A model generated the notes under the pieces. It did not search any database. It saw nothing but the letters and a program-made list of their open reading frames with translations, and was not told the DNA's origin. Source: Alphaproteobacteria bacterium (GTDB lineage Bacteria > Pseudomonadota > Alphaproteobacteria > Rhizobiales > Devosiaceae). Taken from it: 34,831 nt of DNA. Made by a program: the position numbers and the translations under genes. The stretch is taken from NCBI GenBank assembly GCA_024280655.1, contig JAJRPR010000099.1:1-34831 (forward strand). The letters run 5' to 3'. Positions 28,381-34,571 of this stretch are shown in pieces; position 1 is the first letter of the stretch, and every line of letters starts with the position of its first letter.

Positions 28381-28539
28381 CACATCATTCAAAGCATGAG
28401 CCGTAAAGGTGATTGCTGGGATAATGCGGTGGCTGAAAGTTTTTCATACGCTGAAAACAGAATTCATTTTGCTAATGATTACGCATCACCAGTGGATTTT
28501 GAAAAATTCAGAACGTCGCATAAAAAATTGTCCCGTTAA
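28381..28539 (+). mobile_element. IS3-family OrfB transposase remnant (internally deleted)
   Basis: Frame reads HIIQSMSRKGDCWDNAVAESF...RIHFANDYASPVDFEKFRTSHKKLSR*. SMSRKGDCWDNAVAESF is a hallmark of IS3 OrfB and SPVDFEK is normally far downstream. Confidence 0.85.
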
Positions 28540-28604: not shown

Positions 28605-29672
28605 TCATTTTGTATTTATTCTATATCGGGTTGCTCTAGCCTGTCCAAATCGTTCAATCTTGTTCATTTCGACTAATTTGCGCAGGGTATGATCTACTGT
28701 TCTTGGGTTAAGTCCTGTTGCTTTAACAACCTCAGAGCGATTAAAAGATTCAACTAAATTGGCATATTCCCAAACTTTTAATTGCAACTCTGATAAGAAT
28801 ACCTCTGTTGGCTCGTCTGTCATCAACTTCAAGGCTTGTTGACTTTGAGAAATTACTACTTTTAAGAAAAATAGAATCCAAGGTGATAAATCTTCATCAT
28901 CACTCTTCCAGCTTTGCTGTGTTTTATTCAAAGCAACGTAATAATCTGCTTTATGCTCTTCAATGATTTTCTCATGAGAAATAAAAGGAATAAAAGCATA
29001 ACCAGCTTTAAGCATTAAAAGGTTGGTCAATACCCGACTTAAACGCCCGTTACCATCTTGAAATGGATGAATTGCCAGAAACTCAAAAATAAAATTCCCT
29101 ATAATTAAAAGCGTTGGAAAATTATCTTTTGCTAATTCCTTCGTTGTCCAATCTAAAAGCTCTTGCATCTCTTTGGCTACAAGATGGGGTGGTGTTGGAT
29201 CAAAAATAACACCTACCAATTCACCAGCTTGATCTCTTGCTTCAACTCTGTTTGAGCCAAATTTATAAGTTCCTTTGTGTCTGATGTCTTTTTCAGAATA
29301 TTGTAAAATTTGTTGGTGAAGCCCTAATATTGAACTTTCAGTAAAAGGAATATCACTCCAATGCTCAAAAACTGTTTTTAAAACTTCCAAATATCCCCCA
29401 ACCTCTTGTTCATCACGTGTTTTAAATTTTGTGATGCGCTGTTTTTGGAAAAGCGCCTGAACATCTTTATCGCTTAGTTTACTTCCCTCAATACGTGTTG
29501 AAGCACCAGTTGAGGTTACTAACACCGAAGTTTGCAACCGTTGCGCCATCTGTGGCGATAGAGTATTTGCAATTCTCCAATGCCCCTTGATTGCATCAAT
29601 AGATGCAATTTGGCTATAAATTTTGGTAGCTAATTTAGCTGAAAATTGAAGTCGCTTTTCGAATCGTTGCAT
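28605..29672 (-). CDS. Fic family protein (putative AMPylase) with C-terminal winged helix
   Basis: HPFQDGNGRLSR active-site motif; N-terminal STRIEG inhibitory-type motif; C-terminal SEVVKATGLNPRTVDHTLRKLVEMNKIERFG. Confidence 0.92.
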   Translation of the reverse strand: MQRFEKRLQFSAKLATKIYSQIASIDAIKGHWRIANTLSPQMAQRLQTSVLVTSTGASTRIEGSKLSDKDVQALFQKQRITKFKTRDEQEVGGYLEVLKTVFEHWSDIPFTESSILGLHQQILQYSEKDIRHKGTYKFGSNRVEARDQAGELVGVIFDPTPPHLVAKEMQELLDWTTKELAKDNFPTLLIIGNFIFEFLAIHPFQDGNGRLSRVLTNLLMLKAGYAFIPFISHEKIIEEHKADYYVALNKTQQSWKSDDEDLSPWILFFLKVVISQSQQALKLMTDEPTEVFLSELQLKVWEYANLVESFNRSEVVKATGLNPRTVDHTLRKLVEMNKIERFGQARATRYRINTK

Positions 29673-29964
29673 TTTTCACCTTAGTTGCTTGTGAGATATG
29701 GTATGATATGGTGAAAGAAATGCAAGTCTAAATTATAAAAAAATGAAATAAAAATCGGAGCCAATTAAAAAACTCTAACGGGTTTTATATTAAATGCAAA
29801 TCAATAAAATATATCTATAAATACTAAAATCATGTTTTAATATGATCAAATATTTACAAGTGAATACTGATTATCCTGATAAAAATATCGTGAACATTTA
29901 ATCAGCCTATTGCAATTTTTATAAAGTTTAGCAACTATCAATCGTTCTTTTGGGGGAAAAGAAC

Positions 29965-31962
29965 ATGGACTTAAATTTATTTGGAATTCCTAGATTTAAT
30001 TTAGAGAATCGATCAATTCAAAGATTGCCAGCTAAAGCCTATTTAGCGATAGCGCTTCTATTAATTAAATATGATGGGTTTGTGCGCCGTGCAACTTTGG
30101 CAAGTTATTTATGGGAAGATCGTGATACAAATTTAGCTAATGCAAACCTAAGACAATTGCTGGCTGCAATACGCCGATTTGAAAAGCAAAATTCACTTGA
30201 AATCATTAAAGCAGATAGAAATAATATCTATTTAGCAAATTCTGTCGTATGTGATCTAGATGAATTTACCTCTATTAAAAAGCTGACCACTTCTGAGGGG
30301 TTAAAAAGATATGTAGCAAATTATCAAAGAGATTTCTTGCAAGGGTTAGAAGATAGTTCAGGAGACAATTTAAATAAATGGATTTTAATCCAGCGACAAA
30401 ATTTCTCTAATCAATTTTTGCAAATTGCATATAAAGGCGCTTTAAAGATTGGCGGCAAAGATGGAGAAATTGCTTTAGAAAGTTTGCTTTTATCACATCC
30501 ATATGATGAAAAATTGCTACAAACCCTTATTATATCTCTTACAAAAAATGGCGATTATATAAAAGCCAAAAGATGCTTTGATATGTTTGCAAAAAGATTA
30601 TCTCAAGACCTTAATGTAAATCCAACTAATAAAACAATAACATTGGTCGCTCGATTGCTCCCTGATTTAATTCCTGAGCTTCATAGAAAATATTCATTTC
30701 TTTCCAGAAGAAACACCAGCAACATTATATTTACTGGCTTTGAGAATAATCCTCTAAGAGAAGAAGCTAAAGTCAATAATAATCCGCTTCCTCGATTATT
30801 AATTCTACCCCCAACATCTGGAGCATCTGAACTGCCAACATATAGTCACAGACTGGTGGATTCTTTGATAGAAGATATAACCTTGTCATTATCTAGAATG
30901 AGTAATTTTGTTGTTCTTGCTCCACATACCGCAAAACAATTTGTAAAAATGGAGCATGTTCAAATGCAACCAACGCTCGATGTAGATTTTATTATATCAA
31001 CAAGGTTGATGCCAAATGGTAGCAATTTAAATCAAGAAGAAAAAAGATACATAATAAAATTAACCTCTGTTTCAAGCGGAGAGGTTTTGATAACAGAAGA
31101 GATTCGTTTAACGTCAATGGGTCTTTATGAAAGCTATTGTGATGTAATTCAATCATTAGTCAGTAGGATTGGATTAAAAATTGACTGGTCAGTTTTATCT
31201 GACTTTCGTAATACTGGTTTTGCCAATGCTTACATTTTCTATTTGATTGGGAAAGAGAAATTGAATATTGGTGATCTGCCAAATGTTCGTGCTGCACGCA
31301 AAGCATTTAAGCATGCCATAAAGCTAGCACCAGATTTTTATTTGGCTCAACAAATGCTAGCACGAACTTATCATCTTGAATGGTATCTTTTGGGGCGCCC
31401 CGAATGCGAATTACTTTTGAAAACAAAAAACATCGCAACCAGACTTATCAAAACAAACCCCTCTTTAGCAGGGGGTTATTGGGAATATGGAAATTCACAA
31501 TTGTATTTGGGAGATATAGGTAGTGCTTTAGAAATTACATCTGTCGCTATATCCTTAGCTCCGAACCATTCAGATATAATTGCACACAAAGCTGATATTC
31601 TTTGTCATCATGGCGAGCATAACATGGCTCTTAAACTAATAGGCAAAGCGCTAGAACTTAACCCACTACCACCAGATATTTATTATTGGACTGCGGCTGG
31701 CAGCAAATTTTTTCTTCGTGACTATAAAGGCTCTCTAAAAATAATATACAAAACAAAGCCTATTAGTCCTTTATGCTGGCGTTTAACGGCAGCTTGCTAT
31801 GCGATGCTTGGCAATAAAAGAGAATCAAAAAAATATAAAGAACTCTATCTGAACGAATATCCCGATTTTAGAGTAAGTGTATGGCCAAAAATGTTTTCAG
31901 CAAATAGTCAAAACGATATTGAGCATTATACGGAGGCCCTATATCTAGCAGGTTTTAACTAG
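29965..31962 (+). CDS. SARP/BTAD-type transcriptional regulator with TolB/FlgO-like middle region and TPR C-terminus
   Basis: MDLNLFGIPRFNLENRSIQRLPAKAYLAIALLLI..GFVRRATLASYLWEDRDTNLANANLRQLLAAIRR winged helix; BTAD helices; LLILPP...LVDSLIEDITLSLSRMSNFVVLAPHTA; TPR-like helices at the C-terminus. Confidence 0.85.
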   Translation: MDLNLFGIPRFNLENRSIQRLPAKAYLAIALLLIKYDGFVRRATLASYLWEDRDTNLANANLRQLLAAIRRFEKQNSLEIIKADRNNIYLANSVVCDLDEFTSIKKLTTSEGLKRYVANYQRDFLQGLEDSSGDNLNKWILIQRQNFSNQFLQIAYKGALKIGGKDGEIALESLLLSHPYDEKLLQTLIISLTKNGDYIKAKRCFDMFAKRLSQDLNVNPTNKTITLVARLLPDLIPELHRKYSFLSRRNTSNIIFTGFENNPLREEAKVNNNPLPRLLILPPTSGASELPTYSHRLVDSLIEDITLSLSRMSNFVVLAPHTAKQFVKMEHVQMQPTLDVDFIISTRLMPNGSNLNQEEKRYIIKLTSVSSGEVLITEEIRLTSMGLYESYCDVIQSLVSRIGLKIDWSVLSDFRNTGFANAYIFYLIGKEKLNIGDLPNVRAARKAFKHAIKLAPDFYLAQQMLARTYHLEWYLLGRPECELLLKTKNIATRLIKTNPSLAGGYWEYGNSQLYLGDIGSALEITSVAISLAPNHSDIIAHKADILCHHGEHNMALKLIGKALELNPLPPDIYYWTAAGSKFFLRDYKGSLKIIYKTKPISPLCWRLTAACYAMLGNKRESKKYKELYLNEYPDFRVSVWPKMFSANSQNDIEHYTEALYLAGFN

Positions 31963-32041
31963 GTAATGCTTACTAACCTCTACTACGGAAGCGTAGAAAT
32001 TCAAATTCCCATATTATTGCTATGGATAAAAGGAGGAAAAA

Positions 32042-32224
32042 ATGACAAGTATAATTAATTATGATCCACATAAAGGTGGTATTCAAATTCAAGATTCTGT
32101 CACAGGAAAAACTGAAAATATACAGGCCACTATGCTCAGAAAGATTGCTAAACGAAAAATGAAGTTCGCTATTAAAAGTAATCAACTGGCTGCTCATGTG
32201 TTGATTAAGCTCTCCACTACTTAA
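32042..32224 (+). CDS. Small cationic peptide, candidate RiPP precursor for the adjacent YcaO-TfuA
   Basis: 60 aa MTSIINYDPHKGGIQIQDSVTGKTENIQATMLRKIAKRKMKFAIKSNQLAAHVLIKLSTT. Perfect SD AGGAGG 5 nt before the ATG; immediately upstream of ycaO on the same strand; no Cys. Confidence 0.65.
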   Translation: MTSIINYDPHKGGIQIQDSVTGKTENIQATMLRKIAKRKMKFAIKSNQLAAHVLIKLSTT

Positions 32225-32294
32225 TTATGGGGATATTAAAAATAACACTCTACAAAATGAATATCACCCCTATTTTGAATTAGTAGGTGTTGCG

Positions 32295-33491
32295 GTGATG
32301 ACCAATAATACCATCTCCCAGTATCATGATAGGGTAATATCCCCAAATGAAACAATGCACCGAGTCAGTCAGTCATTTGAACAACTTGGAATAACACGAG
32401 TTGCTGATCAAACAGGGTTAGATAAAATTGGCATCCCTTGCTTTGCTGCCTTTAGACCCAATTCCAAGACCCTTGCCAATAGTCAAGGTAAGGGTCTTGA
32501 TCGAGATTCAGCAAAAGCTTCTGCTGTTATGGAGGCAGTAGAACATTCAATTGCAGAAAATCAATATATTCCAACACTGGTAGGAAATATTAAGGGATTG
32601 AGTGAGAGAGGTCAGACTTTAGTTGATATTCGTCACCTGTTGCCAATCGGAGAGATTATCCCTGATAATAAAAAGCTTAGATGGGTTAAAGGCTATAATT
32701 TGTTATCGCAAGATGCGGCTTTGATCCCATTTGATGCAGTAAATATAGATGGCAAAAAAACTGATTTAATAGGCATATGCAAATCCACAAACGGGCTTGC
32801 CTCAGGAAATTGTGAAGAAGAAGCAATTTTTCATGGTCTTTGTGAACTAATAGAGCGTGACGCAGGATCACTTTGGTCTTTGAAAAACAAAGAAATGCAA
32901 GCTCTAACAGCTATTGATCCCGCCACCTGGAAAGATAAAACAGTTGTAGAACTTTTTCAAAAAGTTGAAAATGCTGGATTGAGTATGAAATTATTTGACC
33001 ATACTAGCGATATTGGTATGCCATGCGTTATGGCTGTGATTGGTGAGATTGGCAAAGATGAATATCAACATTTTGACCTTGCAGCAGGTTATGGAGCTCA
33101 CCCAATCGCTTCTCGTGCTGCAATTCGTGCAATTACTGAGGCGGCGCAAACACGTATAACTTCAATTGCTGGATCTCGTGATGATATTGACCCAGATTCT
33201 TATAGTGAGATAGCAGCTCTTGAACATATAAAGTTGCTTGAAGTGAAAGCTACTCCTAATAGATCGATGTCAAAAGGAATGCCGCTTGGAACTTCATTAC
33301 CTGAGTTACTAAGTTATACAATGTTGGCTCTTAGAAAAGTTAGAATTGAAGATATTTTCGCTTTCCCACTCTGTGGGGATGAATTTGATTTCTCAGTAAT
33401 GAAGTTAGTAGTCCCACCTTTGGAAGATCGTGATGCAAACAGCAATTGGCGTCCGAATATAAGAGCATTAGAAGTGATGTTGGCGGCATGA
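32295..33491 (+). CDS. ycaO: YcaO-domain protein (ATP-dependent backbone cyclodehydratase/thioamidation-type)
   Basis: SQGKGLDRDSAKASAVMEAVEHS; STNGLASGNCEEEAIFHGLCELIERDA; ASRAAIRAITEAAQTRIT, the three YcaO ATP-binding signature segments. GTG at 32295 or ATG at 32298. Confidence 0.95.
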   Translation: MMTNNTISQYHDRVISPNETMHRVSQSFEQLGITRVADQTGLDKIGIPCFAAFRPNSKTLANSQGKGLDRDSAKASAVMEAVEHSIAENQYIPTLVGNIKGLSERGQTLVDIRHLLPIGEIIPDNKKLRWVKGYNLLSQDAALIPFDAVNIDGKKTDLIGICKSTNGLASGNCEEEAIFHGLCELIERDAGSLWSLKNKEMQALTAIDPATWKDKTVVELFQKVENAGLSMKLFDHTSDIGMPCVMAVIGEIGKDEYQHFDLAAGYGAHPIASRAAIRAITEAAQTRITSIAGSRDDIDPDSYSEIAALEHIKLLEVKATPNRSMSKGMPLGTSLPELLSYTMLALRKVRIEDIFAFPLCGDEFDFSVMKLVVPPLEDRDANSNWRPNIRALEVMLAA

Positions 33492-34222
33492 GGATATTAT
33501 TTGCAGGCCCAAGTATTTATGGTGCGAATATTGATTTAGGTTCAATTGAACTAAGACCGCCAGCAGCTCATGGTGATCTAGCACGAGCTGTTTTGGATGG
33601 AGCTAGTGCCATTGGGTTAATAGATGGAGTTTTTGAAGCTATAGCAGCTGTGTGGCATAAAGAAATATTATTTGCACTTCAACGTGGGGTTGCAGTAGCA
33701 GGTGCTGCATCAATGGGTGCGCTGCGTGCTTCTGAATGTGCTAAATTTGGTATGATTCCAATTGGTAAGATTGCCCATTCTTATCTTGATGGATCTCTAG
33801 ATGACGATGCAGCTGTTGCACTGATACATGGGCCAACTGAGTTAGGAAGCCCACCCTTTACTGATGCATTGGTAGATATAGAACACACGCTTTCTATTAT
33901 GCTAAATTCTGGTTGCATCAACACCAATGAAGCAAAAAAAATACTTGAAAATGCACGTAAAACATTTTTTAAAAAACGCACTATTGATTCAATAGTATCT
34001 GAACTACCCAATGCTGTTTATCTAAGACAGCAATATAAAAAATACTTCACTAGTCTAAAACAGGCGGATGCTCTTGAACTAATTGCGTATATCAAGCAAC
34101 TGTCTGAAAATAATATCGCATCACCATTATCATGGAAACTTGAGCAACCCCGCACTTGGACAAATGCGCTAAATAAGATTGCAAATAGAAAGCAGTTTGT
34201 TCAAAACGGCGAACAAGTATAG
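33488..34222 (+). CDS. tfuA: TfuA-like core domain protein
   Basis: MRILFAGPSIYGANIDLGSIELRPPAAHGDLARAVLDGASAIGLIDGVFEAIAAVWHKEILFALQRGVAVAGAASMGALRASE is the TfuA core signature. ATG overlaps the YcaO stop (ATGA); the ORF track start at 33446 is probably too early. Confidence 0.93.
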   Translation: MRILFAGPSIYGANIDLGSIELRPPAAHGDLARAVLDGASAIGLIDGVFEAIAAVWHKEILFALQRGVAVAGAASMGALRASECAKFGMIPIGKIAHSYLDGSLDDDAAVALIHGPTELGSPPFTDALVDIEHTLSIMLNSGCINTNEAKKILENARKTFFKKRTIDSIVSELPNAVYLRQQYKKYFTSLKQADALELIAYIKQLSENNIASPLSWKLEQPRTWTNALNKIANRKQFVQNGEQV

Positions 34223-34233
34223 AATAGTTTTTT

Positions 34234-34254
34234 AGATTCACGCAAGATTCACGC
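34234..34254 (+). promoter_or_regulatory. Direct repeat agattcacgc-a-agattcacgc (11-bp period), candidate regulator-binding site
   Basis: Perfect 10-bp repeat spaced one helical turn apart, about 57 bp upstream of the luxR-type ATG. Confidence 0.45.
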
Positions 34255-34310
34255 TTTCTATCTTCTCTTGTCAAAAGGCTACAAAAAGTAGTCATAACAG
34301 GGGGAAATAA

Positions 34311-34571
34311 ATGTCACAAAATTATGTATCTATTACTATTCCAACAGACTTGCGTATGTTTGCAGTTCAAGGATTAAATAATCTAACGCCTAGAGAAACT
34401 GAAATACTTCAAAATGTCGTTAATAACAAAACTTCTAAAGAAATTGCACGTAAGCTAGGTATTAGCTATCGCACAGTAGAAGCGCATAAATCTAATATGT
34501 TACTCAAAATGGGTTTGCATAGCACATTAGATATTTATCGAGTGCTTTATGTTTTATCCAATGAGGATTGA
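34311..34571 (+). CDS. Stand-alone LuxR/GerE-type helix-turn-helix regulator
   Basis: 86 aa, NNLTPRETEILQNVVNNKTSKEIARKLGISYRTVEAHKSNMLLKMGLHS. No receiver or ligand domain. RBS agggggaaata. Confidence 0.92.
   Translation: MSQNYVSITIPTDLRMFAVQGLNNLTPRETEILQNVVNNKTSKEIARKLGISYRTVEAHKSNMLLKMGLHSTLDIYRVLYVLSNED

Follow-up and report, generated by a model that had tools for sequence, protein, structure and literature searches.

A conserved alphaproteobacterial cassette of a SARP-type regulator, a small peptide, YcaO and TfuA is probably a self-contained thioamidated RiPP system

Introduction

What is made by the gene cassette that closes an alphaproteobacterial contig, and which of its genes belong together? 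The cassette lies on contig JAJRPR010000099.1, which in its entirety (34,831 bases) is the window analyzed here. The contig comes from a 2.0-Mb draft genome, 93% complete, whose nearest relatives are Devosia and Devosia-like metagenome-assembled genomes of the Hyphomicrobiales. Five consecutive genes, all on the plus strand as a preliminary description had reported, encode a SARP/tetratricopeptide repeat (TPR) regulator, a 60-residue open reading frame (ORF), YcaO, TfuA and a LuxR-type helix-turn-helix (HTH) protein (Table 1). The preliminary description proposed a minimal pathway for a ribosomally synthesized and post-translationally modified peptide (RiPP) of a class that it could not name. 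Our analysis indicates that the cassette is probably a self-contained thioamidated RiPP system.

Results

Four genes of the cassette are conserved as a unit

We used a YcaO alignment to search 85,462 species genomes and confirmed 319 relatives; counts out of 80 refer to the best 80 of these 319. The tfuA gene is directly downstream of ycaO in all 80 loci, and a SARP/TPR gene is directly upstream on the same strand in 72, at a distance of 172-605 nucleotides (nt). The exceptions are a locus cut by a contig edge (L064), one with the regulator downstream (L069), and loci from Aureimonas, Agrobacterium, Ruegeria, Sorangium and Thermocatellispora. Between the SARP gene and ycaO, a complete small ORF with a ribosome site is found in 74 of the 80 loci, in genera that include Devosia, Rhizobium, Agrobacterium and Aureimonas, and one more such ORF is cut by a contig edge. 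The preliminary description had named consistent loss of the peptide and regulator genes from homologous loci as evidence against a pathway; these loci instead keep the peptide and the SARP/TPR gene in unchanged order. LuxR genes are present in eight of the 80 loci, all within one Devosiaceae-type YcaO clade that includes the window (branch support 87/84). The conserved core is the SARP regulator, the peptide, YcaO and TfuA, and LuxR is a subclade-specific member. The dual regulation suggested earlier is general only in part, as its LuxR half marks a single subclade.

A further sample of Hyphomicrobiales yielded a ycaO of the cassette's YcaO family in 62 of 398 genomes, about one in six, and most of the 30 loci retrieved from this sample show the regulator and precursor as well. 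In three genomes of another alphaproteobacterial family (L168-L170), a regulator, a 136-residue ORF, YcaO and TfuA follow the gene order of the window; taken as a whole, the 136-residue protein does not look like the short precursors, and it may represent an additional type of precursor. The cassette of Rhizobium johnstonii 3841 (L137) is carried on the conjugative plasmid pRL11 with an IS110 element nearby, an arrangement consistent with mobility of the Rhizobium cassette. In this strain the precursor is RL_RS40325, ycaO is RL_RS32810, tfuA is RL_RS32805 and the SARP gene is RL_RS32815.

One same-genus genome (G002) holds all five genes. Its blastn homology to the window covers positions 29948-32111 and 32335-34562, which correspond to the cassette, and the immediate flanks are unmatched; the sole further match is a Fic-like gene elsewhere on the relative's contig. 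Because the homology covers the cassette genes and not their immediate flanks, the layout is not due to chance. In three of the five genomes of the genus, both ycaO and the regulator are missing. Each of the listed Devosiaceae genomes with a full ycaO also has a SARP/TPR gene, and only one without ycaO (G014) showed a regulator match, which was weak (75 bits). In the 14-kb neighborhoods of 20 relatives, we found no further gene family common around the cassette and no conserved transporter, protease, C-protein or dehydrogenase. Together, the cassette-limited homology and the lack of a shared neighboring family indicate that these genes move together as a minimal unit, with no transporter, protease or further tailoring enzyme. 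This agrees with the earlier remark that the window offers no transporter, protease or E1-like partner, and a Pfam scan of the 26 window proteins detected neither a C-protein (E1-like/RRE) nor an FMN dehydrogenase.

The small ORF encodes a proposed leader and core

The window ORF has a AAAAGGAGG-type ribosome site and is present in single copy in its genome. The encoded peptide has no Pfam or NCBIfam match, and its orthologues are found at L051, L052 and L053. Across the 80 loci, the small ORFs fall into four sequence types plus a few singletons: the window type, a 68-80-residue type in Devosia, Agrobacterium and Antarcticirhabdus, a 41-51-residue type in Rhizobium and some Aureimonas, and a short Devosia form that ends in RKFFRQ or RKFFKH. 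Over 309 pairs, the Rhizobium type, annotated by RefSeq as a hypothetical protein on pRL11, has a dN/dS of 0.16, compared with pN/pS values of 1.8 and 2.4 in the two alternative frames. The small ORF is a real gene, because this ratio is low in its own frame and above 1.7 in the wrong ones.

Multi-core RiPP precursors such as VarA of thiovarsolin are characterized by a leader followed by a repeated core (PMC6511847). Relatives from other Hyphomicrobiales families carry tandem repeats of this kind behind a conserved leader of the 72-residue type. There are eight copies of a unit ending in RS(D/E)xAAHILYG at L143, six ending in RSDAASHIFYG at L153 (60-nt period with 94% matches in Tandem Repeats Finder, TRF), seven ending in GGLFERSE at L163 (42-nt period), five ending in RS(D/E)AASHYYYP at L142, about eight copies at L144 and four at L156. 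These multi-core precursors are encoded at about positions 700-1500 of their loci. The window peptide ends in KSNQLAAHVLIKLSTT, the LAAHVL part of which matches the tandem repeat units of relatives, and the AAH(V/I) shared by the four closest precursors matches the units of L142-L144 and L153. The L053 precursor contains SSDGVAAHVLYRESPGIAAHVLYRDTP, a duplicated unit (VAAHVLYRESP/IAAHVLYRDTP) that aligns with RSDAAAHILYG of L143. TRF reported no tandem repeat above threshold in L053 DNA, and this duplication therefore rests on the protein sequence.

A motif of two small residues, His and a hydrophobic or polar residue occurs in the C-terminal half of 19 of 49 non-redundant precursors, compared with 3.6 expected from shuffles (maximum of 10 in 5000); the enrichment is supportive rather than decisive, because the motif was picked after inspection. 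The shared core segments AAHVL, VHALKFR and AAHILYG hold no Cys, Ser or Thr, and the Rhizobium core shows strong conservation, with no sign of hypervariability. The window peptide is cationic as first described, with a net charge of +7, but charge is not what it shares with its relatives: the common feature is the putative C-terminal AAH core. A leader common to all precursor types, likely by eye, was unsupported by hhalign and was rejected. In an AlphaFold model of a 72-residue relative, the N-terminal half is semi-ordered (predicted local distance difference test, pLDDT, 71-76) and the tail is disordered; Foldseek searches with this model gave no significant fold match (best E 1.5).

Precursor type and regulator co-evolve with YcaO

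We mapped precursor types onto a maximum-likelihood tree of 81 YcaO proteins. Precursor type changes eight times on this tree, compared with 35 times when labels are shuffled, and the window, Rhizobium and RKFF types each occupy one clade. Distances between YcaO proteins and between SARP proteins correlate with r = 0.97 (0.89 without the Rhizobium type), and none of 999 permutations gave a value as high. Therefore, precursor, modifying enzyme and regulator evolve together. The clade-specific pairing of precursor and YcaO, together with the tandem cores of relatives, supports the minimal RiPP pathway that had been proposed.

YcaO and TfuA as a proposed thioamidation pair

YcaO starts at GTG 32295 or ATG 32298 and matches the Pfam family over its full length. 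The three ATP-binding segments reported earlier were located at residues 76-83, 164-189 and 282-287 (nt 32520-32543, 32784-32861 and 33138-33155). The motifs SxxxExxE, SxNGxASGN...ELIERD and ExxQxR are kept, with most positions invariant in 11 sequences, and the closest solved structure is MJ1094 (6pe3, 9.5e-30). A C-terminal PxPxP is a trait of azoline-forming YcaO enzymes. The window YcaO lacks it, ending in ...RALEVMLAA, and it was found in one of 72 relatives checked. As previously noted, the gene set differs from classical azol(in)e clusters, which carry C-protein and dehydrogenase genes. A tfuA gene next to ycaO, intact YcaO ATP segments and an encoded candidate leader-core precursor, the marks of a thioamidated RiPP locus, are found together here.

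The tfuA ATG overlaps the ycaO stop codon as ATGA, which bears out the start-stop coupling described before. In the alignment with 6xp8, Ser75 (within SMGALRA) and Lys94 of TfuA are matched, and the mechanism of a catalytic Ser-Lys pair is cited in PMC13185837. The MGALRA motif is present in 71 of the 80 relatives; a simple Ser..GK pattern occurs in only six, so a Lys at that spacing is not a general feature. The only ThiS-family match in the source genome is a MoaD beside MoaE (L131, contig C72).

The regulator combines SARP, CadC-like and TPR domains

The regulator matches several TPR families and BTAD, the latter at 22.9 bits with a gathering cut-off of 22.1. Its AlphaFold model (mean pLDDT 85, 29 sequences) comprises a winged HTH (residues 1-92), BTAD (about 95-242), a TolB_N/CadC-like alpha/beta domain (277-382) and a TPR superhelix (384-662). 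The N-terminal winged HTH and BTAD expected of a SARP are both resolved in the model, and BTAD scores just above the Pfam cut-off. Foldseek ranks TPR superhelices highest, with the CadC periplasmic domain also among the leading matches; the protein has no transmembrane segment (maximum hydropathy window 1.28). The SARP/TPR family is widespread in Alphaproteobacteria, including in contexts without ycaO. The 86-residue LuxR/GerE protein has neither a receiver nor an autoinducer domain. At L053 (G023), the SARP gene (positions 120-868) is split into two frames by an in-frame stop, and the regulator may be decaying at this locus, where the precursor core is duplicated.

Cassette layout and neighboring genes

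Intergenic gaps are 79 nt between the SARP and peptide genes, 70 nt between the peptide gene and ycaO, and 88 nt between tfuA and luxR; the contig end cuts the right flank 260 nt after luxR. Within the cassette, predicted terminators and promoters are no more or less numerous than in shuffled sequence, and a search for a hairpin between the peptide gene and ycaO showed only imperfect AT-rich repeats.

To the left, the cassette adjoins a Fic/DOC gene on the minus strand (28605-29672), whose relative in G002 lies elsewhere on the same contig as the G002 cassette and is broken by a stop. A short ORF at 28396-28539, beginning MSRKGDCWDNAVAESF, is recognizable as an IS3-family transposase fragment, an insertion remnant between the capD-like and Fic genes. 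Positions 126-28105 hold a large surface-polysaccharide cluster with a NusG-like antiterminator, flippase, polymerase, glycosyltransferases, a PP-loop/HisH/HisF-like trio, a heparinase II/III-like protein and a CapD-like dehydratase.

Table 1. Features of the cassette, in window coordinates
Feature	Position	Strand	Evidence
SARP/HilA-like transcriptional regulator	29965..31962	+	665 aa; Pfam BTAD and TPR
Proposed RiPP precursor peptide	32042..32224	+	60 aa; ORF kept at equivalent place in 74 of 80 relatives
Leader motif D-x-x-T-G-K-x-E, aa 18-25	32093..32116	+	Alignment of four closest precursors
Proposed core AAHVLIKLSTT, aa 50-60	32189..32221	+	AAH(V/I) common to four closest precursors
YcaO, proposed ATP-dependent backbone thioamidation enzyme	32295..33491	+	Pfam 1.2e-59; MJ1094 6pe3 closest PDB
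TfuA, proposed sulfide-delivering partner	33488..34222	+	Pfam 1.5e-39; PDB 6xp8 7.6e-26
Small LuxR/GerE-type HTH protein	34311..34571	+	86 aa; Pfam GerE 2.7e-19

Discussion

We propose that the cassette encodes a self-contained thioamidated RiPP system, a model that we regard as probable as a whole; that the small ORF is a precursor peptide is, in our judgement, more probable still. The tandem cores of relatives and the way in which precursor types follow YcaO clades make this its best reading. The SARP/TPR protein, joined in the window subclade by the small LuxR protein, would control the operon. The 60-residue peptide would be produced as leader plus core, with the DxxTGKxE region of the leader docking it on the enzymes. 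TfuA would provide a sulfide equivalent, and YcaO would phosphorylate a backbone amide in the C-terminal core, around LAAHVLIK, and swap its oxygen for sulfur. Release of the core would fall to housekeeping proteases, which we invoke because no dedicated protease or exporter is conserved. We infer the direction of regulation, the thioamide chemistry, the modified position, processing, export and biological role from gene content and conservation.

Several observations weigh against this model. The window precursor type has only four clear members, and hhalign detects no homology among the leaders of three precursor types (window, Devosia/Agrobacterium and Rhizobium; probability below 2%). The (A/S)-(A/S)-H motif, itself picked after inspection, is missing from about 60% of non-redundant precursors. 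The thioamide is predicted from the YcaO-TfuA pair, and the 93% complete draft genome yielded no dedicated ThiS, which usually donates the sulfur.

The pair might instead modify a housekeeping protein, with the small ORF being incidental. The nearest NCBIfam models are indeed the McrA-glycine thioamidation YcaO and TfuA, and EcYcaO thioamidates uL16 in E. coli (PMC13063428). However, both McrA models are missed widely (205.4 against a cut-off of 365 bits for YcaO, 158.2 against 235.2 for TfuA), McrA (MCR_alpha) was not found in the source genome, and the uL16-type model NF040716 scores 29.8 bits against 700. Moreover, TfuA is not encoded near any uL16-modifying YcaO (PMC13063428), yet it is adjacent here. 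We rejected McrA and uL16 as substrates on these grounds, and since the enzyme is missing from three of five genomes of the genus and relatives keep the small ORF, some of them in multi-core form, a housekeeping target seems extremely unlikely. It is also very unlikely that the small ORF is an accessory protein, such as a sulfur carrier or substrate-recognition adaptor, rather than the substrate. Part of it may fold, given the partly ordered N-terminal half of the 72-residue relatives, but it has no C-terminal GG and no recognizable fold, the Rhizobium form is very short, and a disordered tail with 5-8 tandem repeats in several families is expected of cores and not of a carrier. Azol(in)es or another amide-derived group such as an amidine would be a very improbable product in place of a thioamide: YcaO enzymes form both, and residues 58-60 of the window core include Ser/Thr, but TfuA is invariably adjacent, C-protein and dehydrogenase are lacking and PxPxP is almost absent. 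The shared core segments, devoid of Cys, Ser and Thr, argue against azol(in)es at these positions and fit thioamidation.

A further proposal is compatible with the thioamidated RiPP model and adds a role to it: the modified peptide could be a ligand of the SARP/TPR regulator, in RRNPP-like autoregulation. The regulator is the one constant non-biosynthetic partner and co-diverges with YcaO, its C-terminal half is confidently predicted as a TPR superhelix, a peptide-binding fold, and the lack of a conserved exporter and the conserved Rhizobium core point the same way. On the other hand, any cassette-specific regulator would give equal linkage, the family occurs widely in the class even where ycaO is absent, TPR-peptide binding is itself a prediction, and conservation would also be compatible with a metallophore or an antibiotic. 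We consider this role unlikely on balance. RRNPP systems are autoregulating peptide-sensing systems of Gram-positive bacteria. A widespread alphaproteobacterial peptide circuit, equally speculative and slightly more doubtful, would have short thioamidated peptides with a His-centered core (A-A/S-H), made by YcaO-TfuA and sensed by the TPR domain of the partner SARP-type regulator, and would thus be RRNPP-like with a chemically modified ligand; alternatively, an ATCUN-like X-X-His N-terminus beside the thioamide might bind copper or nickel. If so, cleavage before the core would create the free X-X-His N-terminus.

The analysis names a precursor and likely core for a cassette present in about one-sixth of sampled Hyphomicrobiales genomes, including the tractable R. 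johnstonii 3841, and thereby opens one of the largest orphan groups of thioamide peptides to direct testing. The multi-core loci (L142-L144, L153, L156 and L163) are the best experimental entry point to the system, and the pairing of a constant TPR regulator with a conserved peptide suggests a signalling hypothesis that can be put to the test.

Comparison with known systems

The product class can be named after all, as thioamidated (TfuA-type) RiPPs counted by antiSMASH surveys (PMC8120280, main text). The class is already known, because genome mining by Malit et al. 2021 counted more than 500 TfuA-related clusters in Rhizobium; that study counts Rhizobium and Agrobacterium among the dominant families and traces every known TfuA-YcaO RiPP product to Actinobacteria, though most clusters are in Proteobacteria (PMC8120280). 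The antiSMASH-mined TfuA-related/thioamitide clusters of Rhizobium and Agrobacterium are very probably the same loci as the relatives described here, and in the main text of PMC8120280 there is no mention of SARP or LuxR, and no leader/core anatomy or product is given for these Rhizobium and Agrobacterium clusters. Among the titles and abstracts searched (supplements and subscription papers were beyond reach), we came across no account of a unit formed by regulator, precursor, YcaO and TfuA, of its multi-core precursors or of an AAH core, and nothing that combined TfuA with BTAD or thioamitides with Devosia. Thus, the architecture and its precursors appear to be new within the literature covered.

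The thiovarsolin cluster of Streptomyces varsoviensis (varA, varY, varT) resembles the cassette in its YcaO-TfuA pair and precursor, in the repeat-bearing precursors found among relatives, and in lacking a dedicated protease; varA-varY-varT alone suffice for thiovarsolin B (PMC6511847). It differs in being actinobacterial, in its APR core and unrelated precursor, and in its amidinotransferase, ATP-grasp, heme-oxygenase-like and MFS genes, and the thiovarsolin paper mentions no SARP/TPR or LuxR gene (PMC6511847). The methanogen YcaO/TfuA that modify McrA glycine provide the closest curated models and the closest solved YcaO structure, MJ1094, but the cassette scores far under their equivalog cut-offs and its genome has no McrA. 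Thioviridamide-type thioamitides likewise have YcaO-TfuA installing backbone thioamides. Their clusters carry many further tailoring genes, none of which is conserved at the cassette. The window precursor is not known to resemble the TfxA-type precursor of trifolitoxin; no reference sequence was searched. Thioamidated biarylitides, which also contain His, were considered and do not match, as they rely on a P450 and on a hybrid precursor that was engineered. Finally, the regulator shares the winged HTH-BTAD-TPR layout of SARP/HilA/CadC-type proteins, and its central domain resembles the CadC periplasmic domain; unlike them, it has no transmembrane segment and is the fixed partner of a YcaO-TfuA pair.

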